In this document: positions 10,590 to 36,509 of the stretch, piece after piece | How positions within the stretch are numbered: position 1 is the first letter of the stretch | Layout: each line of letters starts with the position of its first letter | Source of the DNA: Pleurocapsa minor GSE-CHR-MK 17-07R | GTDB lineage: Bacteria > Chloroflexota > Anaerolineae > Aggregatilineales > Phototrophicaceae | Direction of reading: 5' to 3' | Assembly: GCA_019359125.1 (NCBI GenBank) | Contig: JAHHHY010000023.1 | Span: 1-36,509 of the forward strand | DNA length: 36,509 nt | Translations under genes and position numbers: made by a program | Notes under the pieces: generated by a model | The model's input: only the letters and a program-made list of their open reading frames with translations | Database searches by the model: none | Told to the model about the DNA's origin: nothing

Positions 10590-12653
10590 ATGAATACCGA
10601 GCGTCCGCCACTGCGCGCATATCTGCTGCCTGTCGTCATCCTGCTGGCGGTCGCGCTGCTGCTGACGGGCTATTATGCGGTGCATAAGCCGATTGATCCG
10701 GCCTCCGGCCTGCGCTATCTGGGCATGGCCATCGACGTGCTGGCGCCGCTGGGGCTGACTGTGGTGTGCGCGGGTGCGGGCAGGGGCGTGATGCGACGCG
10801 TCGCCGTGCGCGCCGGGGCACCGGCCGGATTCGGCCTGTCACGCGCGGAAAGCCTGGCGCTGGACGCGGCCATTGGGCTGGGCATGATGTCCGGGCTGCT
10901 GGTGCTGGTCGGTCTGGCGGGGCTGTTCCGGCCGCTCGTCTTCGCGGTAATGCTGCTGGCCTGCATCGCCCTGTTTCGGCGCGACATTCCCGCCTGGCTG
11001 CGCGACGCACGTGGCATCTTTCGCGCTTCAAAGCCGGACGGCGCGTTCACCTGGGTTATCGCGGGCTTTTGCGTGCTGCTGCTGGCGCTGGCGCTGATTC
11101 ACACCCTGGCCCCGCCGTACGCGTGGGACAGCATCGTGTATCACCTGGTGGAGGTGCAGCATGCGCTGCGGGATGGACGCCTGACCGCCAGCGCCGACAA
11201 TTTCTATCTGGGCTTCCCCAAAGCGACAGAAATGCTGTTCGGCATGGTCATCGGCCTGACCGGGCGCTTCACCAGCGGCGGCGGCATCCATTTCGCCTTC
11301 GGCGTGCTGGGGCTGCTGGCGGCTGCGGGTATGGCCAGGCGCCTCGCCGGGAGGCAGGCGGCATGGCTGGCGGTCACGCTGCTGCTGGCCAGCTTCAACC
11401 TGTGGCAGTTGTTCGGCTGGGAATATGTCGATCTGGCAGTGATGCTGTTCAGCACGGTGGGCTTTGGGCTGCTGTTGAGCTGGCGCGCGGGTGGCTTTGA
11501 ACGGCACAGCCTGCTGTATGCGGCGCTGCTGGGCGTATTGTGCGGCTTCGGCTTTGGCACCAAGTACACGATGGGCGCGTTTATCCTCGCGTGCGTGCTG
11601 TGGATGTTCATCGCCGGGCGCAGACAGGCGCTGCGGCCCTTCCTCGTGTTTGGCATCGCGGCAACGCTGGCCTATGCGCCGCACGCGCTGCGCGGCCTGC
11701 TGCTGTATGGCAACCCGATTTATCCGTATTTCCTGAACGGGCTGGCGTGGGATGGCATTCGCAGCGCGGTGTTCAGCCAGGCTGGGCGCGGGCTGCTGGC
11801 GCGTGGTGAGCTGGCGGAACTGCTGGCGCTGCCGGTCAGCGCGACTGTGCTGGGCATGAATTATGGCGAGACGTATTCGTTCACGCTGGGGCCGTTCCTG
11901 CTGACATCCCCGCTGCTGCTGACCTTGCTCTGGCGCGTGCTGGAGCAAAAGGTGCGCACAGCTGCCGTGCTGGGCCTGGCGATCATGCTGCCGATCTATA
12001 TCTATTGGGCGGTGACGGCAGCTTTCACCGGCATCGGCATGCAGACGCGCCTGGTGATTATGCTGCTGCCCATTTCGGCTGTGCTGGGGGCGTGCGCGCT
12101 GGTCGGGCTGGACCGGCTGCCGGAAAAACCGATCAAGGTGAGCTTCATCGTGCGCGGGATATTCCTGCTTACGGTGCTGTTCAGCCTGTTTGAGGTGCAC
12201 AAAAAAGTCAACGAGACGCACTTTCTGGAAGTGACGCTGGGCACCATGCCGGAGCAGGAATTCCTGTTCCGCAATCTGGCCACGCATCGCGCCACGCTGG
12301 ACCGCCTGAATGAGCTGCCCGCTGGCTCGACCGTGCGCTTTATGTGGGAGCCGCGCAATTTCTACTGCCCGGCGCAGCTGACTTGCATCCCCGATGTGCT
12401 GTTTGACAACTGGGGCTATCAGCGCAGGCAGGGGGTCGCCCAGGCAGAGATCATCTCTCGCTGGCGTGACGCCGGGGACGATTACCTGCTGTTCTTCCAC
12501 CTGGGCTATCAGGAATATCTGGATTTCAGCTTTTCGCCCGAATATGATGTCGAGTTCCCGGTATATGCCGGCGAGAACCTGCCAGTGGTATGGGCGGCAG
12601 ACGACGGCCGCTATACGCTGTATGCCCTAAATGACGCGCAGCCTGTAGAATAA
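10590..12653 (+). CDS. Large GT-C-type membrane glycosyltransferase-like protein
   Basis: A 687-residue polytopic membrane protein of more than ten spans. The first extracytoplasmic loop after the fourth or fifth helix has YAWDSIVYHLVEVQ followed by FYLGFPKATEMLFG. This is the pattern of GT-C proteins, where an acidic residue in a Tyr/Trp-rich loop is catalytic and a PK/PP turn follows. It ends with a soluble domain of about 120 residues (MWEPRNFYC to the C-terminus) containing a pair of Cys (YCPAQLTC) that could form a disulfide outside the cell. The start is supported by GGAGAGGG at 10571-10578. It stands alone between the Fe-S oxidoreductase and an SH3b protein. The sugar and acceptor are unknown. 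Confidence 0.72.
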   Translation: MNTERPPLRAYLLPVVILLAVALLLTGYYAVHKPIDPASGLRYLGMAIDVLAPLGLTVVCAGAGRGVMRRVAVRAGAPAGFGLSRAESLALDAAIGLGMMSGLLVLVGLAGLFRPLVFAVMLLACIALFRRDIPAWLRDARGIFRASKPDGAFTWVIAGFCVLLLALALIHTLAPPYAWDSIVYHLVEVQHALRDGRLTASADNFYLGFPKATEMLFGMVIGLTGRFTSGGGIHFAFGVLGLLAAAGMARRLAGRQAAWLAVTLLLASFNLWQLFGWEYVDLAVMLFSTVGFGLLLSWRAGGFERHSLLYAALLGVLCGFGFGTKYTMGAFILACVLWMFIAGRRQALRPFLVFGIAATLAYAPHALRGLLLYGNPIYPYFLNGLAWDGIRSAVFSQAGRGLLARGELAELLALPVSATVLGMNYGETYSFTLGPFLLTSPLLLTLLWRVLEQKVRTAAVLGLAIMLPIYIYWAVTAAFTGIGMQTRLVIMLLPISAVLGACALVGLDRLPEKPIKVSFIVRGIFLLTVLFSLFEVHKKVNETHFLEVTLGTMPEQEFLFRNLATHRATLDRLNELPAGSTVRFMWEPRNFYCPAQLTCIPDVLFDNWGYQRRQGVAQAEIISRWRDAGDDYLLFFHLGYQEYLDFSFSPEYDVEFPVYAGENLPVVWAADDGRYTLYALNDAQPVE

Positions 12654-12692
12654 CGGGCCACCTGGTATCGATAATTGAATTGATGATGCGTG

Positions 12693-14135
12693 ATGCATTT
12701 GCCTAGACTCCTCCCTGTAATCGTACTGCTGCTGTGCTTCGCTGTTCTGCTGGTGGCCGGGGGCCTGCTGGCTCAGGACAGCCCGACGCCCGTGCCCACG
12801 GCCGGCGTGCTGCTGGTCGTAACGCCGCCGCTGCCGCCCACGGCCACGCCTGTGCCCACCGAGGCGCCGCCTGTGACCGAAACCTGCGCCGATGCGCTGG
12901 TCGGGCTGTATGTGACGGCCACCGAAAGCTGTATCAACAAGCCGCAGGGCTTTATCTGTAACGCGGGCATCGCGCTGGGCGCAGAGCCGCAGGGCGGGGT
13001 GAGCAATGCGCTGGCGTCTACGGGCGCGCTGGTCGAGGCCGCGCTGGTGGACAGCATCGCGTCGGCCCCGTTTGCGCCCGAAGTGGGCACCGCCGGTATG
13101 GCCTATCTGCGCGCGGACGATCCGCTGCGCTATACGGCCTTCCTGCTGGGCGATGTGCGCATGCGCGATGTCTCGCCGCCGGAATTCACGGCCTGGACCA
13201 GCTTCGTGGTCGAGACCAGTTTCACACCGCCTGCGTGCCCGTCTGCGCCCACGCCGATGCTGGTGCTGCAAACGCCGATCGGCTATGGTGTGCGCATCGT
13301 CGTCAACAGCATCTCGCTCTATCTCAATGGCACGGCGCTGGTCAAGATCGACGGCACCAATACCGCCTTCATCCTGCTCAGCGGCGTCGGCTCGGCGCTG
13401 GCCTCCGGCACGGAAGTCGCGTTTAACGTGGGTGAGCAGGTGACGGTGGCCCACGCGCCCGATGATGTCAGCGTGCCCATCAGCGCGCCCAGTCAGCCCC
13501 AGCCGTATGACCCGGCGCTGGCGGCCAATCTGCCGATCGCGCTGCTGGACCGGCCGATCGTGCTGCCTCAGCCGGGCTATGTCATCACCCAGGGCGCGGT
13601 CAATATGCGCGTGTCGCCCGGCACCAACGCCGCGGTCGTGCTGCAGGTTCCGGCGGGCGAAATCCTGAGCGTGCTGGGCCAGAATCCGCAGCAGGACTGG
13701 CTGCATGTACGCCGCGACACGGGCGAAACCGGCTGGATGCTGGCCGAGCTGCTGGGGCGCAATACCGGCTCACTCAGCGCGGTCTATGAATCCACACCGC
13801 TTCCCCCCCAGCGTTATGGTGAGCTGGGCACCAGCGGCCGCGTGATCGCGCCCAATGGGGCCAGCCTGCGCAGCGGCCCGGACACAATTTTCCCGGCGAT
13901 TGTGTCGCTGACGGATGGCCAGCCGGTGACGCTGCTGGCGCGCAGCCCGTACAGCCCGTGGGTGAAGGTGGACATCGGCGGGGCGATTGGCTGGCTGGCG
14001 CTGATCGCGCTGGATACCCAGGCCTATATCGATGCGCTGCCAGTGGATTACCAGGCGCCGGCTATCCCCACGCCGACGATTCCGCCCGGTTCGTTTGGCA
14101 ACGCCTTCCCCGACCCTGACGGGCCGGACAACTAG
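12693..14135 (+). CDS. Exported protein with two SH3b domains
   Basis: The 480-residue protein has an N-terminal signal or anchor helix (LLPVIVLLLCFAVLLVAGG), a short Pro/Thr-rich stretch, a central domain of about 200 residues with Cys pairs and no recognised motif, and two bacterial SH3 domains near the C-terminus. The first reads GAVNMRVSPGTNAAVV to GETGWMLAELL, the second GASLRSGPDTIFPAI to IGWLALIAL; each has the usual N-x-R-x-x-P/G opening and a GW near the end. SH3b domains often bind peptidoglycan or other wall polymers, so a wall-associated role is plausible. ATG 12693 was taken over the adjoining GTG 12690. No ribosome-binding site is seen, but a GATAAT lies at 12670-12675, so the leader would be only ~10 nt. 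Confidence 0.82.
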   Translation: MHLPRLLPVIVLLLCFAVLLVAGGLLAQDSPTPVPTAGVLLVVTPPLPPTATPVPTEAPPVTETCADALVGLYVTATESCINKPQGFICNAGIALGAEPQGGVSNALASTGALVEAALVDSIASAPFAPEVGTAGMAYLRADDPLRYTAFLLGDVRMRDVSPPEFTAWTSFVVETSFTPPACPSAPTPMLVLQTPIGYGVRIVVNSISLYLNGTALVKIDGTNTAFILLSGVGSALASGTEVAFNVGEQVTVAHAPDDVSVPISAPSQPQPYDPALAANLPIALLDRPIVLPQPGYVITQGAVNMRVSPGTNAAVVLQVPAGEILSVLGQNPQQDWLHVRRDTGETGWMLAELLGRNTGSLSAVYESTPLPPQRYGELGTSGRVIAPNGASLRSGPDTIFPAIVSLTDGQPVTLLARSPYSPWVKVDIGGAIGWLALIALDTQAYIDALPVDYQAPAIPTPTIPPGSFGNAFPDPDGPDN

Positions 14136-14144
14136 CGTTCTCAG

Positions 14145-14178
14145 GCGGGTGGGCTCACGGGAGCTCACCCGCTTTTTT
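14145..14178 (+). terminator. Rho-independent terminator after the SH3b gene
   Basis: GCGGGTGGGCTC (14145-14156) pairs with GAGCTCACCCGC (14161-14172) with one G-U pair and a 4-nt loop, followed directly by six T residues (14173-14178). Confidence 0.92.
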
Positions 14179-14324: not shown

Positions 14325-15317
14325 ATGATGTTCAAATCAACACGTTTGGCAAAAATGATCTCGCAGGGCGCACTGGCCACCGGGCTGATGCTGGCCGCAG
14401 TCGGCCCGGCCGTCGCCCAGCAGTCGCCGCTGCCGGTCGCTACCTACCTGCTGGGCACCGTGGCGCAGATCAACGGCACGCTGTGGACGGTCAACAGCCA
14501 GTCGGTCAATGTGGCGGGCGCCTATATCGATGACCGCATCACGGTGGGCAGCATCGTCGAGATTCGTGCATTCGCCACCGGGCCAAATGCCTGGCTGGCG
14601 ACCTACGTCGATCGCGAAGATGACCTGAATCTGGGCGCGGCCCAGTGGCGCGTGGGCGGGCTGGTGCAGGCCGTCACCCCGACCAGCGTGACCATCGGCG
14701 GGCAGACCTACACGCTGCCTGCTGGCATCAGCGCGGCAGACCTGGTGGTGGGCAATCCGGCCGTGCTCACGCTGTCGGTCGATACATCCGGCGCCATTGT
14801 GGTCACCCGTGTGCGCACCACCACATCGATACGCGACGCCATCGATGACCGCGACGATGACAACGGCATTCGCGGCACCGCGACACCCACCGGCGCAACA
14901 GTCACGGCAGAACAGGCCGCCGCGATTGCGCTGGGTGTGCTGCCCAACGCGCGCATCACCGAAGTCGAGCTGTATCGTGGGGGCGATGGCCGCCCGTACT
15001 GGGAAGTGAAGACCAATACCGGCCACGAATTCCGCATCAGCGCGGTGGACGGCACCATCTGGTCGATCGAACGCGATGATGACGGGGATGACAACAGCGG
15101 CAGCGGCTCGGACGACGACCGTAATGACGATAATGACGATGACTCGAATGATGACTCGTTTGACGACAACGACGACGATAGCTCGGATGATGATTCGAAC
15201 GACGATAACGACGATGACTCAAACGATGATAACGACGACGACAGCTCGGATGACGACGACAGTTCAGACGATGACTCGAACGATGATGACAGCGGCAGCG
15301 ACGACAACGACGATTAG
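14325..15317 (+). CDS. Exported DUF5666/PepSY-like protein with poly-acidic tail
   Basis: A 330-residue exported protein. The signal peptide ends near AVAQQ (about residue 32). Two consecutive DUF5666-like beta units follow (LLGTVAQINGTLWTV to WLATYVDRED, then VGGLVQAVTPTSVTIGG to GAIVVTRV). A PepSY-like unit comes next (TAEQAAAIALGVLPNARITE, then GRPYWEVKT and ISAVDGTIWSIE). The last 80 residues (251-330) are nearly all Asp with Ser, Asn and Gly. Such a tail would be extended and strongly negative and could hold divalent cations; this is inference. ATG 14325 (or 14328) follows an AAAAGGA site, while the in-frame ATG 14199 precedes a non-signal segment. It is the first of three genes with the same architecture. 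Confidence 0.8.
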   Translation: MMFKSTRLAKMISQGALATGLMLAAVGPAVAQQSPLPVATYLLGTVAQINGTLWTVNSQSVNVAGAYIDDRITVGSIVEIRAFATGPNAWLATYVDREDDLNLGAAQWRVGGLVQAVTPTSVTIGGQTYTLPAGISAADLVVGNPAVLTLSVDTSGAIVVTRVRTTTSIRDAIDDRDDDNGIRGTATPTGATVTAEQAAAIALGVLPNARITEVELYRGGDGRPYWEVKTNTGHEFRISAVDGTIWSIERDDDGDDNSGSGSDDDRNDDNDDDSNDDSFDDNDDDSSDDDSNDDNDDDSNDDNDDDSSDDDDSSDDDSNDDDSGSDDNDD

Positions 15318-15334
15318 CTGCTGATGCGCTGGAC

Positions 15335-15367
15335 AGCACAGGGGCGAGGCATGCCCGCCCCTGTGCT
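15335..15367 (+). terminator. Strong intergenic hairpin without U-tract
   Basis: AGCACAGGGGCG (15335-15346) and CGCCCCTGTGCT (15356-15367) form a perfect 12-bp stem with a 9-nt loop. No T-run follows, so it may be an mRNA stabiliser or a partial terminator between the first and second DUF5666-PepSY genes. Confidence 0.5.
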
Positions 15368-15441
15368 GCGCGGGCATGCGCTTTACTGGTATCCATACGC
15401 TGCTGCCGGTCAGGCAGACGGATTTAGCGGGAGTAATGAGG

Positions 15442-16539
15442 ATGATGTCGATGAAGAACAGAAACCACATGTCGCGCGCGGGGCTGCTGGCGCTCGGCCT
15501 GCTGCTGGCGCTGCTGCTGACAGCGCCCGTCGCGGCCCAGCGGCCAAAAGCCCAGGTCGTGACGATGATCACCGGCTTTATCGAGCTGGTGACGCCCGAT
15601 GCGTGGGTGGTTGGCGGGCACATCCTGCTGGTCAACCAGGCTGATATTCAGGGCGAATTTGCGGCTGGCAGCGTCGTCACCATGCATGCCTATCCCACGC
15701 CGATCAGCATTTGGGAGGCGTCGATTATCGAGCCTGCCCGCATCGCAGGGCTGAATCCGGGCGAGGCGGTGATTGAAGGGCTGGTGGACAGCGTGGATGG
15801 CAGCACCATTTTCGTGGGTGGCCAGTCTTTCAAACGCGCATCGAGTGCCGAGGCGGACGTGAATCCGCTGCAGGCTGCTGTGGGAATGCCGGTGCGTATG
15901 CGCACTTCCAGCAGCAATGGCACATGGGAAGTGAGTGCGGTCACGCCGGCCTGGGTAGGCGCGCAGGCTGACGGCGTCGATGCCAGCGGGGCCACAGCCC
16001 TGCCGCTTGTCATCGTGAACGGTCAGCAGGCGGCTGATATCGCTGCGGGGATGTTTCCAGACAGCCGCGTGACCGGCATGGCGCTGGTGCCAACGGCTGA
16101 TGGTGGTACCTCCTGGCGCGTGCAGACCAATGCCGGCGTTTCGCTGGACATCAACAGCACGGACGGCAACGTGGTGTCGGTGGCTATGCTGGCGGCTCCT
16201 GGCACAGATGATGATGGCTCGAATGATTCGAACCAGTCCAACAACACGTCGAATAACACATCGAGCAACACCAGCTCGAATCAGTCTGACGACAGCAACT
16301 CAAACCAGTCGAACAACACGTCGAATAACACGTCGAGCAACACCAGCTCGAATCAGTCTGACGACAGCAACTCGAACCAGTCGAACAACACGTCGAATAA
16401 CACGTCGAGCAACACCAGCTCGAATCAGTCTGACGACAGCAACTCGAACCAGTCGAACAACACGTCCAGCAATACGTCCAGTGACGACGATGATAACGAT
16501 GATGACGGTGGCGATGATGACTTTGACGACGACGATTAA
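15442..16539 (+). CDS. Exported DUF5666/PepSY-like protein with Asn/Ser/Thr-rich repeat tail
   Basis: A 365-residue paralogue of the next gene. Its signal peptide ends near APVAAQ. It has two DUF5666-like units (MITGFIELVTPDAWVVGGH, and AVIEGLVDSVDGSTIFVGG to NGTWEVSAV) and a PepSY-like unit (NGQQAADIAAGMFPDSRVTG, then TSWRVQTNAGVSLDINSTDG). From about residue 255 the tail is built from 24-residue repeats of Ser/Asn/Gln/Thr ending in Asp-Asp, and it finishes in an Asp-rich block. ATG 15442 was chosen because GGGAG stands upstream at the same distance as for GTG 16680 of the paralogue, and the two starts align codon for codon; ATG 15436 and 15451 are alternatives. Several Asn-x-Ser/Thr-like motifs arise from the repeat and should not be read as glycosylation sites without proof. 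Confidence 0.78.
   Translation: MMSMKNRNHMSRAGLLALGLLLALLLTAPVAAQRPKAQVVTMITGFIELVTPDAWVVGGHILLVNQADIQGEFAAGSVVTMHAYPTPISIWEASIIEPARIAGLNPGEAVIEGLVDSVDGSTIFVGGQSFKRASSAEADVNPLQAAVGMPVRMRTSSSNGTWEVSAVTPAWVGAQADGVDASGATALPLVIVNGQQAADIAAGMFPDSRVTGMALVPTADGGTSWRVQTNAGVSLDINSTDGNVVSVAMLAAPGTDDDGSNDSNQSNNTSNNTSSNTSSNQSDDSNSNQSNNTSNNTSSNTSSNQSDDSNSNQSNNTSNNTSSNTSSNQSDDSNSNQSNNTSSNTSSDDDDNDDDGGDDDFDDDD
16216..16480 (+). repeat. 72-bp tandem repeat inside the second DUF5666-PepSY gene
   Basis: About 3.7 copies of a 72-bp unit, with units beginning near 16216, 16288, 16360 and 16432 (GACGACAGCAACTC marks the last three starts). Units two and three are nearly identical at DNA level. The length is a multiple of three, so copy number can change without frameshift. 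Confidence 0.92.
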
Positions 16540-16562
16540 CTGCTAAAGCGAAAGCATATGGG

Positions 16563-16584
16563 TGGGGGATATGACTATCCCCCA
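16563..16584 (+). terminator. Hairpin between the second and third DUF5666-PepSY genes
   Basis: TGGGGGATA (16563-16571) and TATCCCCCA (16576-16584) make a perfect 9-bp stem with a TGAC loop. There is no following T-run, so it resembles the hairpin upstream of the previous gene in role and weakness. Confidence 0.5.
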
Positions 16585-16679
16585 GTCAGCACATGAATCA
16601 TCTCAAATGCTAGTTCATAATGATTAATAAGCACACGTCGTCGTTTATCGGATGTGTGCAACTAGCGGGAGAAATTTGG

Positions 16680-17735
16680 GTGAATTCAGTGAAGAATAGA
16701 ACGACTCCCGTGCCTCGTCTGGCAGTTCTCATATTTAGTTTCTTCTTGGGGCTGCTGCTGACAGCGCCCGTTTTGGCCCAGCGGCCAAAAGCACAGGTCG
16801 TCACGATGATCACCGGCTTTATCGAGCTGGTGACGCCCGATGCGTGGGTCGTTGCCGGGCATATATTGCTCGTGAACCAGGCTGATATTCAGGGCGAATT
16901 TGAAGTCGGCGGTGTCGTCACGATGCATGCCTATCCCACGCCGATCAGTATCTGGGATGCCTCAATCGTAGAGCCAGCCCAGATCGTCGGGCTGAATCCG
17001 GGCGAGGCTGTGATTGAGGGTCTGGTGGACGGCGTGGATGGCAACACCATCTTCGTCGGCGGACAATCATACAAACGGGCATCCAGTCCTGAGATGGATG
17101 TGAATCCGCTTCAGGCTGCTGTCGGGATGCCAGTGCGGATGCGCACTTCCAGCACCAGAAGTGGCTGGGAGGTCAATGCCGTTACAGCAGCCTGGGTTGG
17201 CGCGCAGCTCGATATTGCCGATGCCTCTTTTGTGTTGACGTTGCCTCTCGTGCTTGTGAATGGTCAGCAGGCTGCTGATATCGCTGCGGCAATGTTTCCC
17301 AACAGCCGCGTGACCAGTATGGAACTGGTGCCCACGGCTGCAGGTGGTACAACCTGGCGTATAGAGACCAATGCCGGCGCCGCGCTGGACATCAGCAGCA
17401 CAGATGGCACTGTGGAGTCGGTGACGATTCTGGAGGTTCCGCGTAACAACAATAACGGTTCAGATGTTTTTGGCCCGCCTGCGAATCCGCCCAACAACTC
17501 AAATCCGAACCCGCCTGCGAATCCGCCTGACAACTCAAATCCGAACCCGCCTGCGAATCCGCCCGACAACTCAAATCCGAATCCGCCTACCAGTATGCCG
17601 CCCATGGCGACGGCCGTCCCGCCTGTCAGTATGCCTCCCACTTCGCCTCCAAACCCGCCTGCCAATGTGCCGAATAATGACGATAACGATGATGACGACG
17701 ATGATGATGGCGGTGGGGATGACGACGACGATTAG
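16680..17735 (+). CDS. Exported DUF5666/PepSY-like protein with Pro/Asn-rich and acidic tail
   Basis: A 351-residue paralogue of the preceding gene. Both share almost the same DNA from the end of the signal peptide through the first DUF5666-like unit (AQRPKAQVVTMITGFIELVT). The second unit and the PepSY-like unit (NGQQAADIAAAMFPNSRVTS) are more diverged. The tail from about residue 256 is different: three Pro/Asn repeats (PPANPPDNSNPN), a Pro/Met/Thr stretch, then a terminal Asp run. GTG 16680 is taken as the start, with GGGAG at 16667-16671, by alignment with the paralogue; ATG 16620 is in frame but adds 20 residues that do not look like a signal peptide. Base composition is a little more AT-rich than in the paralogue. 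Confidence 0.76.
   Translation: MNSVKNRTTPVPRLAVLIFSFFLGLLLTAPVLAQRPKAQVVTMITGFIELVTPDAWVVAGHILLVNQADIQGEFEVGGVVTMHAYPTPISIWDASIVEPAQIVGLNPGEAVIEGLVDGVDGNTIFVGGQSYKRASSPEMDVNPLQAAVGMPVRMRTSSTRSGWEVNAVTAAWVGAQLDIADASFVLTLPLVLVNGQQAADIAAAMFPNSRVTSMELVPTAAGGTTWRIETNAGAALDISSTDGTVESVTILEVPRNNNNGSDVFGPPANPPNNSNPNPPANPPDNSNPNPPANPPDNSNPNPPTSMPPMATAVPPVSMPPTSPPNPPANVPNNDDNDDDDDDDGGGDDDDD
17478..17588 (+). repeat. 36-bp tandem repeat inside the third DUF5666-PepSY gene
   Basis: Three copies of a 36-bp unit start at 17478, 17514 and 17550 and encode Pro/Asn-rich dodecapeptides. The differences between copies are mostly third-base changes. Confidence 0.88.
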
Positions 17736-29182: not shown

Positions 29183-30253
29183 CTAGCGACCAACTACCTT
29201 GCAGCCATCGGTAAAGCGAATATTGATGCCGGTGGACATTGAAAACTGGTATTCGCCGCCTTCATAGCGAATCGTGGCGACGCCATTGGCGGGCGCGTCA
29301 AAGTCGCTGATCGCTTCCGCCCACATCACTGCCATGTCGCACACGGGCAGCGGCGAGACGGACTCGGAGGGGCGCGTGGTGGGATCTGCGAGGTTCAGCT
29401 CCATGCCCTGATTGGTGTACTGGATCGAGGTGCTGATGCCGTTGGAGGTGGTGCGTCGGGAACGGAACTGCCCCGGCTCGTAGGCGCGCACGGTGATCGG
29501 CTGATACCACTGTCCGCCGCTGTTGCCCGCCGAGCCGACGGGCGGGGCATCTGCCGGTTCAGGAATCGGGCGCAGGAAGGAATATTCGGCATAGGCGTTC
29601 TGATTGCGGTCGGTCAGGTCCATGGTGCCGTCGCTGCGCACGTTGGTGAAACTGAACTCGGTGAACTGCGCGCCGTCCCCGGCGATGCGCTGGGCCTGCG
29701 CCAGGCCGGTCAGCGGATTGAAATTGGCGGCATCTCCCACGACGGCTTCGCTGTAGGGCGGAGACAATCCCTCGGTCACCTGGCTGATCAGCTCATTGAT
29801 GCCTTCCAGAAAGCCGCCTTCTCCGCTCAGGTTGCCGAGCATCGGCACGGTGACCGCGGCGGTGATGACCAGCGGCAGCCCGCAAGATACCAGAATGATC
29901 AGCCACACGATGCAGCCCCAGCGCGTTTTGGGGGGCTGATTGACCATTATCGGCGTGCCGGTGTAGGCATAGGCCTGATAGCTGGACTGGTTGATCGGGT
30001 TACCGAACGGGTCGGTGGCGCGGCCGGTGCCGCCGATCGGATTCTGGCTGCGGTTGCTGCTCCCGCCAATTGGGTTCTGGCTGCGGTTGCTGGTGCCGCT
30101 GATCGGGTTCTGGCTGGCGCCGCCGCTCCCGCTGATGGGATTCTGGCTGGCACCACGGTTCCACGAATCGCCTACCGGCGACGTGCCATCGCTGCCCGCC
30201 ATATCGTCGTTGAAATCAAACTGGTAGTCGCTGTTATCATCATTGGGTGACAT
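29183..30253 (-). CDS. Membrane protein with N-terminal undecapeptide repeats
   Basis: The 356-residue protein has a disordered acidic N-terminus, four 11-residue repeats of the SQNPI type (GASQNPISGSG, GASQNPISGTS, NRSQNPIGGSS, NRSQNPIGGTG), one membrane helix at about residues 112-140 (CIVWLIILVSCGLPLVITAAV), and a C-terminal domain of about 200 residues with no recognised motif. The C-terminal domain would lie outside the cell, with the repeats in the cytoplasm (positive KTR just before the helix). ATG 30253 follows AGGGGG; an in-frame ATG seven codons earlier lacks one. Function is unknown. It is divergent from the large exported protein at 30410 and 75 nt upstream of the RmlD-like gene. 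Confidence 0.72.
   Translation of the reverse strand: MSPNDDNSDYQFDFNDDMAGSDGTSPVGDSWNRGASQNPISGSGGASQNPISGTSNRSQNPIGGSSNRSQNPIGGTGRATDPFGNPINQSSYQAYAYTGTPIMVNQPPKTRWGCIVWLIILVSCGLPLVITAAVTVPMLGNLSGEGGFLEGINELISQVTEGLSPPYSEAVVGDAANFNPLTGLAQAQRIAGDGAQFTEFSFTNVRSDGTMDLTDRNQNAYAEYSFLRPIPEPADAPPVGSAGNSGGQWYQPITVRAYEPGQFRSRRTTSNGISTSIQYTNQGMELNLADPTTRPSESVSPLPVCDMAVMWAEAISDFDAPANGVATIRYEGGEYQFSMSTGINIRFTDGCKVVGR
30024..30156 (-). repeat. 33-bp tandem repeat in the membrane-protein gene
   Basis: Four copies of a ~33-bp unit (marked by GGGTTCTGGCT or GGATTCTGGCT on the plus strand) encode the undecapeptide repeats. The copies have diverged in pairs: two GAS-type and two NRS-type. Confidence 0.8.
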
Positions 30254-30373
30254 GGGGCCCCCTGTCTGGCGCATAGAAATGGTTATGGATACGCCTTAGT
30301 GTAGTCAGTTTTCCGCATGCGGGATAGCGGATTTACGCCGACAGCGATTGGCGCAGTGGCGCGGCAAACGTGT

Positions 30374-36421: not shown

Positions 36422-36509
<88 letters not shown>

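Follow-up and report, generated by a model that had tools for sequence, protein, structure and literature searches.

Several described systems approach, each in a different part, the arrangement considered here. In the SigI/RsgI system, by which Clostridium thermocellum senses biomass, the outer domain of the anti-sigma factor resembles a protein made under its sigma factor: RsgI6 carries a GH10 module with 57% identity to Xyn10D, and sigma-I6 activates the Xyn10D promoter in B. subtilis (PMC4711584). Class I anti-sigma domains (ASDI; PMC7406223) belong to proteins encoded beside an extracytoplasmic function (ECF) sigma factor; in DbfQRS an exported PepSY protein is encoded beside an envelope sensor (PMC12714742), and UipA displays PepSY outside the membrane, with a possible link to cations (PMC8963506). 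What we say of these systems draws on portions of the cited papers. We compare with them three tandem genes, P1, P2 and P3, in a stretch of 36,509 nucleotides (the window) from Pleurocapsa minor GSE-CHR-MK 17-07R (assembly GCA_019359125.1, contig JAHHHY010000023.1, positions 1 to 36,509), a genome placed by GTDB in the Chloroflexota. We propose, with a probability of roughly 0.58, that P1–P3 are exported members of a module of sigma factor, anti-sigma-like protein and exported partner that is widespread in this phylum and would work by feedback through a shared ligand.

The P1, P2 and P3 open reading frames (ORFs) are all open at the positions in Table 1; the probable GTG start of P3 aligns with the likely ATG of P2, and the same GCGGGAG sequence precedes both starts. 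An earlier note on this DNA had proposed tandem exported proteins of one architecture, and had named heads that fail to align as what would speak against it. The heads do align, P1 being 29% identical to P2 (E 2e-16) and to P3 (E 3e-17), and P2 being 75% identical to P3 (E 2e-140); the observation of a common architecture is confirmed. The three tails differ in the manner that note described, with repeats found by Tandem Repeats Finder in P2 (3.3 copies of 72 bp) and P3 (3.2 copies of 36 bp), and an Asp run forms the tail end of each protein. Since the run is retained in P1–P3 and the central part of the tail varies, function may reside in the Asp end, with the central part serving as a spacer. 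A poly-Asp C-end as a genome-wide sorting signal was rejected, since five Asp codons before TAA or TAG occur at only two sites in this genome. The suggestion that the family is specialised by its tails stands in so far as a conserved head is combined with swapped tails, and the action of the tail is probably what matters in the family; what it missed is the tie to sigma and anti-sigma genes in relatives.

The two DUF5666 units and one PepSY unit that had been read into every head are above the Pfam cut-offs in P1 and below them in P2 and P3. In P1, DUF5666 (PF18914) scores 29.2 bits over two stretches (cut-off 27) and PepSY (PF03413) 33.1 bits (cut-off 24), whereas DUF5666 reaches 11.2 bits in P2 and 13.6 bits in P3, where it is assigned via homology to P1, and neither protein has a Pfam match to PepSY. 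A lineage hidden Markov model (HMM) finds two DUF5666 and one PepSY in each of the three, a support that is not independent because the model was seeded partly with P1. AlphaFold2 predicts two small beta-barrels at residues 40–166 of P1 (block predicted local distance difference test, pLDDT, 77–93) and a PepSY fold at residues 195–250, with the signal region and most of the tail at pLDDT <50. The PepSY part matches YpmB (Z 9.1, root-mean-square deviation (rmsd) 1.5, 59 aligned), and the first barrel (model residues 33–99) is of the oligonucleotide/oligosaccharide-binding (OB) type, matching CusF 2qcp with Z 9.7, rmsd 1.8 and 65 aligned; unrelated OB folds match it from Z 8.9 down, so the fold is a general one. 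The metal ligands of CusF are Met and His, and the first DUF5666 unit of P1 (residues 33–102) contains neither. A CusF-type metal chaperone was thus rejected, the fold being present and the ligands absent, and a copper site of that type is not supported.

A search of related genomes for further heads, which the earlier note had also proposed, was productive: a family profile made from the three heads (A2) matches 35 of the 151 genomes of the order, this one included (E ≤1e-5), and close relatives of P1–P3 were not found (P0002 matches 5 of 41 genomes, again including this one). In the related loci L051 and L056 the partner tails are in frame and their repeats differ. Among 39 stretches recruited by their heads, the window included, 37 contain a DUF5666 ORF; an ECF sigma gene of one kind is present in 22 of these 37, and in most of the 22 it is adjoined by a gene for a membrane protein with an Asp/Asn/Ser/Gly tail end. 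A second set was recruited with a profile (A3) built from the sigma factors of the head-linked loci, and consists of the best 80 of 411 stretches, with record titles of Chloroflexi, Chloroflexota, or subgroups such as Anaerolineae, Aggregatilineales and Thermoflexus. An anti-sigma-like gene adjoins the sigma gene in 75 of the 80, a DUF5666 partner lies within 4 kb of it in 35, and none of the 40 DUF5666 ORFs found across the set (998 kb, up to 8 kb on each side) is more than 3 kb from the sigma gene. Acidic low-complexity tails are found in 42 of 72 complete anti-sigma-like proteins and 33 of 35 partners of this set, and at the C-ends of only 5 of the 1229 remaining ORFs that are 150 aa or longer; judged by their tails, these five resemble additional partners. 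The sigma factors are of the ECF kind, with Sigma70_r2 and Sigma70_r4 both above cut-off in the three from L016 and from the two pairs of the Pleurocapsa genome itself (L180 on contig 16 and L012 on contig 1), and TIGR02937 above cut-off in that of L180.

The anti-sigma-like protein and the partner mirror one another at their C-terminal ends. We compared 44 pairs, being 56 anti-sigma/partner pairs less 8 that were duplicates and 4 that a contig end truncates; the partners of L193, L197, L206 and L157 had first been picked by the likeness of their tails and were left out for that reason. The class of the last domain agrees in 42 of the 44 (LysM in 8, PepSY in 6, SH3 in 3, and none in either protein in 25), against a mean of 18.2 and a maximum of 30 under permutation, the exceptions being L083 and L098. 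Wherever LysM, PepSY or SH3 is present it lies behind every DUF5666 unit and is the last domain found before the C-end (36 of 36 proteins). The tails agree as well: over the last 30 aa the L1 distance in composition is 0.512 within pairs and 0.888 when pairs are permuted, with none of 20,000 permutations as low, and none of 20,000 was as low when permutation was confined to clusters of similar sigma factors (last 40 aa). Set against the mean for the partners of the three nearest sigma relatives, the own partner is closer in 39, 41, 35 and 35 of the 44 pairs at 20, 30, 40 and 60 aa respectively. The matching is not confined to acidic tails, as both tails of L095 (6208-9492) are Pro-rich and end in CPPxC, those of L186 are Pro-rich with the CPPxC end in the anti-sigma-like protein only, and L193 and L206, with LysM by Pfam and first spotted by tail likeness, have Arg/Asp tails in both proteins.

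Matched tails have a longest shared DNA stretch of 12.6 nt, compared with 12.2 nt predicted from synonymous codons, and only 1 of the 44 pairs (L016, which shares a longer stretch than expected) falls below 0.05. Since this is no more than random synonymous codons give, recent copying is not the general cause of the likeness. When loci of the same genome are compared, 13 of 17 tail tests favour the own locus, 3 another locus and 1 is a tie; doubtful partners in this test are the SH3 proteins of L187, L209 and L210 and the LysM protein of L211, which lack such tails. This result, and the coexistence of different tail chemistries in one genome (an acidic and a Pro-rich pair in G031), weaken genome-wide composition as a cause, although the test is small. 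With, in relatives, an anti-sigma sensor of the same domain class and a matching tail beside it, the tail is best read as common to sensor and target. We suggest, at somewhat short of even odds, that low-complexity disordered tails serve in the Chloroflexota as a swappable address common to both proteins, their chemistry (acidic, Pro-rich with a Cys end, or Arg/Asp) being preserved within each module as the DNA diverges and jointly selected as a recognition code.

A promoter adds further evidence. De novo searches upstream of sigma and partner genes gave dyads in up to 12 of 86 sequences, compared with at most 5 in shuffled ones, and the ECF-type site reads CCGNAACYTTTT-N12-G(A/T)C. Its core, CCGNAACYTT, is found upstream of 31 of 44 partners, 1 of 44 sigma genes, none of 44 anti-sigma genes and 6 of 427 other ORFs; it also precedes 8 of 53 sigma genes outside this training set. 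The partner is upstream of the sigma gene in 35 of the 44 pairs, in 18 of them by no more than 300 bases, and in such cases one transcript may cover all three genes. With a position weight matrix (PWM) made from the 31 partner promoters, the best site in the window is that of P1, the next best scoring 9.1 bits; the elements at P1 are CCGAAACC and GACT. The exact form CCGWAACYTTTT-N12-GWC has two matches in the 4.85 Mb of this genome, one at P1 and one before a lipoprotein-like gene on contig 1. Allowing one mismatch, CCGAAACCTTTT-N12-GACTG has four matches in 61 genomes, three of which precede DUF5666-PepSY genes (P1 and genes in G007 and G023); the fourth, on contig 58 of G013, is inside the 3′ end of one ORF and some 60 nt ahead of a second, and neither ORF belongs to this family.

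The genome encodes two anti-sigma-like proteins at E ≤0.001, each paired with a sigma factor outside the window, on contig 16 (C16) and contig 1 (C1). The C16 pair (sigma gene L180:9794-10378, anti-sigma gene L180:10362-11108) has no partner beside it. A promoter with one mismatch precedes its sigma gene and has GCCAGACTGTA in common with that of P1; the four nearest relatives of its sigma factor (0.58–0.61) are from loci with PepSY partners, and the fifth (0.58) from a LysM locus. Its anti-sigma tail is also nearer than the C1 tail to those of P1, P2 and P3 at 20 and 30 aa, with P3 tied at 40. From the kinship of the sigma factor, the GCCAGACTGTA sequence and the closeness of the tails we assign P1 to the C16 pair, its likely controller in trans, and P2 and P3 with less confidence. 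The C16 sigma scores best with the BldN family, below the cut-off of that model; a BldN member controls surface proteins in Streptomyces, which is a lead only. The C1 pair lies near the lipoprotein-like gene mentioned above (an LLAAC motif, by our reading), whose tail, GGGNNNNNNDDDDDDDDDDD, mirrors the GGGNNNNNDDDDDDD of the C1 anti-sigma and fits that protein. The gene that separates this Asp-tailed lipoprotein-like gene from the sigma gene (L012:7349-9088) is of the HTTM, or vitamin K-dependent carboxylase-like, type, and a second HTTM-type ORF is near the sigma gene of L053.

A profile of the N-domain of the anti-sigma-like protein matches 71 of the 151 genomes of the order and 99 of 301 Chloroflexota genomes (E ≤1e-6). 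In the model of the L016 protein, N-terminal helices at residues 2–18, 23–29, 31–50 and 54–75 are followed by a helix at 90–113, where the sequence is hydrophobic; PepSY then stands between a long disordered linker and a tail that is also disordered. The four helices fit the description of the class I domain in PMC7406223, with profile and structure matches wanting, and the gene beside an ECF sigma gene, the membrane-like helix and the outer part are as in that class; the proteins differ from it in an N-domain that has no database profile above cut-off and in an outer tail matched to a neighbouring exported protein. Pfam confirmed LysM, SH3 and DUF5666 in sampled anti-sigma-like proteins and partners, and DUF5667 in several of the former; a fold search with the anti-sigma model gave the UipA structure 7ath at Z 6.1. 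We treat the neighbour as a predicted anti-sigma factor that would bind and inhibit the sigma factor.

There is some variety among these proteins. Those of L102, L104, L109 and L110 are longer (677–780 aa), and in L104, L109 and L110 the C-end is a hydrophobic stretch with a Lys/Arg-rich end and no tail. The anti-sigmas of L187, L208, L209 and L210 have Asn/Gly/Gln repeat tails, with no tail-matched partner seen within 5 kb, and that at L198:5092-6249 has a tail of Asp/Glu with Trp (DEDWDEE), again lacking a gene with a matching tail within 5 kb. For the Thermoflexus anti-sigmas whose tails are Pro/Arg, no convincing partners are among the matches listed.

The homology, gene linkage, promoter, and matching of domains and tails are present in the sequences themselves; the mechanism that we propose for them is conditional. 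A membrane anti-sigma would hold the ECF sigma factor, its outer part ending in PepSY, LysM, SH3 or none of these and then in the disordered tail, and the sigma factor would transcribe an exported DUF5666 protein matching the anti-sigma in domain class and in kind of tail. Having this outer module in common, the two proteins most likely reach the same envelope site or the same ligand, which for acidic tails would be cationic or metal-rich. With more free ligand the anti-sigma would be engaged and the sigma factor set free, whereupon the partner produced as a result would take up the ligand and turn the signal off; ligand, competition and the direction of feedback are our inference, drawn from the RsgI6/Xyn10D, DbfQ and UipA precedents. 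In this genome P1 bears the promoter of the sigma factor, with C16 as likely controller, and P2 and P3 are tandem copies lacking the promoter, altered in the middle of the tail and keeping its Asp end. The most likely role is that of an exported protein under regulation, with a tail-encoded ligand or surface address in common with the anti-sigma sensor of its own module. The replacement of PepSY by LysM or SH3 in relatives favours a wall or surface address, and binding of a cation or of the wall is a possible role for the tail.

Several observations weigh against this proposal. The window contains neither a sigma nor an anti-sigma gene; it is promoter and tail, not position, that connect it to C16, and the C16 anti-sigma lacks a PepSY match whereas P1–P3 have PepSY, a mismatch resembling that of pair L083. 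No sigma gene is present in 15 of the 37 head-recruited DUF5666 stretches, the window among them (several are short contigs), and 40 of the 80 sigma loci have sigma and anti-sigma without a DUF5666 partner within 4 kb; the latter set, moreover, inherits its sigma profile from head-linked loci and represents 80 of the 411 stretches that matched. The promoter is absent from P2 and P3 (best sites -3.0 and -9.7 bits), and outside the training set the core precedes only 1 of 4 DUF5666 partners and 1 of 5 others, which suggests either that not every module uses this form or that the start of some genes is misplaced. Neither Pfam nor NCBIfam matches the anti-sigma N-domain above cut-off (two T2SSF matches lie below), and there is no convincing match in the PDB, where fold searches returned mainly PepSY relatives and barely probed the helical part. 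Finally, the same-genome test is small, and 2 of its 13 favourable cases are from this genome, with partners assigned by inference.

The main rival to a shared ligand is that the partner binds its own anti-sigma directly, through PepSY, LysM, SH3 or the tail, and regulates it as DbfQ does DbfS, with no outside ligand. DbfQ binds its sensor domain with a Kd of 30 nM and sets the output (PMC12714742), and the same domain occurs in both proteins of 17 of the 44 pairs; but in 25 of the 44 both proteins lack all three domains while the tails match across the whole set, two acidic tails should repel one another unless bridged by a cation, and the cited portion of PMC12714742 mentions no such tail for DbfQ. 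We consider direct binding unlikely, although it deserves to be kept in view. Slightly less probable is that these are, as the earlier note suggested, proteins specialised by their tails in binding cations, matrix or wall, here at the surface, and that the neighbouring sigma factor of relatives is a mere regulator. The LysM and SH3 domains of relatives are in keeping with this, as are the uranyl binding of the UipA PepSY through a negatively charged face (PMC8963506) and the presence in one genome of three adjacent genes whose tails differ, in a window without a sigma gene; it leaves unexplained why the anti-sigma should have the same domain class and a matching tail.

It is also conceivable, though quite improbable, that the tail directs both proteins to one machine for export, anchoring, glycosylation or cleavage, the load of which the anti-sigma reports. 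In keeping with such a machine, both proteins have disordered C-ends whose chemistry is swapped (acidic, Pro-rich with the CPPxC ends of L095, or Arg/Asp as in L193 and L206), the anti-sigmas have Thr/Pro-rich linkers, and a PMT_2-type glycosyltransferase is encoded at 10590-12653 of the window, but no conserved sorting motif was seen at the tail ends, and a dedicated enzyme was sought in the listed flanks only. Least probable of all is neutral matching by slippage of GAT/AAC repeats, gene conversion or genome composition, for although the tails are repetitive, mostly share Asp, Asn, Ser and Gly, include the longer DNA match of L016 and fit another locus better in those 3 of 17 comparisons, DNA copying is seen in a single pair, different chemistries coexist in single genomes (G031, G093 and this one), and Pro-rich and Arg/Asp pairs match too.

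The sigma/anti-sigma/partner module that we favour combines kinds of part that are known. It departs from SigI/RsgI in its sigma factor, which has regions 2 and 4, while SigI has region 2 and a SigI C-domain instead of region 4 (PMC6056542), and in that the mirrored part is a disordered tail with LysM, PepSY or SH3, the target being a DUF5666 protein. DbfQRS is a two-component system, with neither DUF5666 nor tails in the part of the paper cited; UipA has tandem PepSY and a two-component system upstream, and the cited part describes no sigma module. DUF5666 is named only in tables in the portions of the literature covered, none was found on DUF5667, alone or with a sigma factor, and neither the module nor, in the literature searched, the matching of tails was found (titles and abstracts, with preprints and most subscription journals outside the search). 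Disordered low-complexity sequence is usually considered too loose for specificity; if the matching is true, such sequence is kept in step between two proteins across many genomes. Three odd tails lead to a signalling circuit that can be tested, its promoter, sigma factor and candidate sensor all named; DUF5666, whose function is unknown, gains a likely setting, and a class of envelope signalling in a little-studied phylum becomes predictable from sequence through the anti-sigma profile.

Signals around P1–P3 (Table 1) bear on how they are transcribed. The terminator-like site upstream suggests that P1 probably opens a new transcription unit, and together with the hairpins after P1, P2 and P3 it suggests that each gene may be its own unit. 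A sigma-70 scan of the region found 1 site, compared with 2.0 expected.

Table 1. Positions in the window of P1–P3, of parts of P1, and of nearby transcription signals.
Feature	Position	Strand	Remarks
Terminator-like site, 3′ of the upstream SH3 gene	14143..14174	+	Consensus match
ECF-type promoter of P1	14247..14282	+	CCGAAACCTTTT-N12-GACTGTA; site start (14247) 78 nt before ATG; PWM 29.1 bits
P1	14325..15317	+	330 aa; signal peptide, 2 x DUF5666, PepSY, Asp/Ser/Asn tail
P1 head, used in family profile A2	14421..15071	+	
P1 disordered tail, Asp/Ser/Asn	15072..15314	+	pLDDT mostly <50
Strong hairpin after P1	15334..15368	+	No U run; 61-nt fold -39.1 kcal/mol, z -3.58
P2	15442..16539	+	Head as P1; Asn/Ser/Thr/Gln repeat tail, end ...DDDDNDDDGGDDDFDDDD; likely start ATG 15442, alternative ATG 15436
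Hairpin after P2	16559..16588	+	No U run; 61-nt fold -21 kcal/mol, z -3.08
P3	16680..17735	+	Head as P1; Pro/Asn repeat tail, end ...NNDDNDDDDDDDGGGDDDDD; likely start GTG 16680, ORF open from 16620
Terminator-like hairpin after P3	17767..17803	+	U run; z -3.61; absent from consensus-scan list

Directly 5′ of P1, positions 12690-14135 encode an exported-looking protein with two SH3_3 domains that ends in PDPDGPDN. Elsewhere in the window, a 33-bp tandem repeat of about 4 copies (30016-30151) lies within a reverse-strand ORF (29183-30274) that has no Pfam match at E ≤0.001, and the contig end falls inside a 16S rRNA gene (36422-36509).

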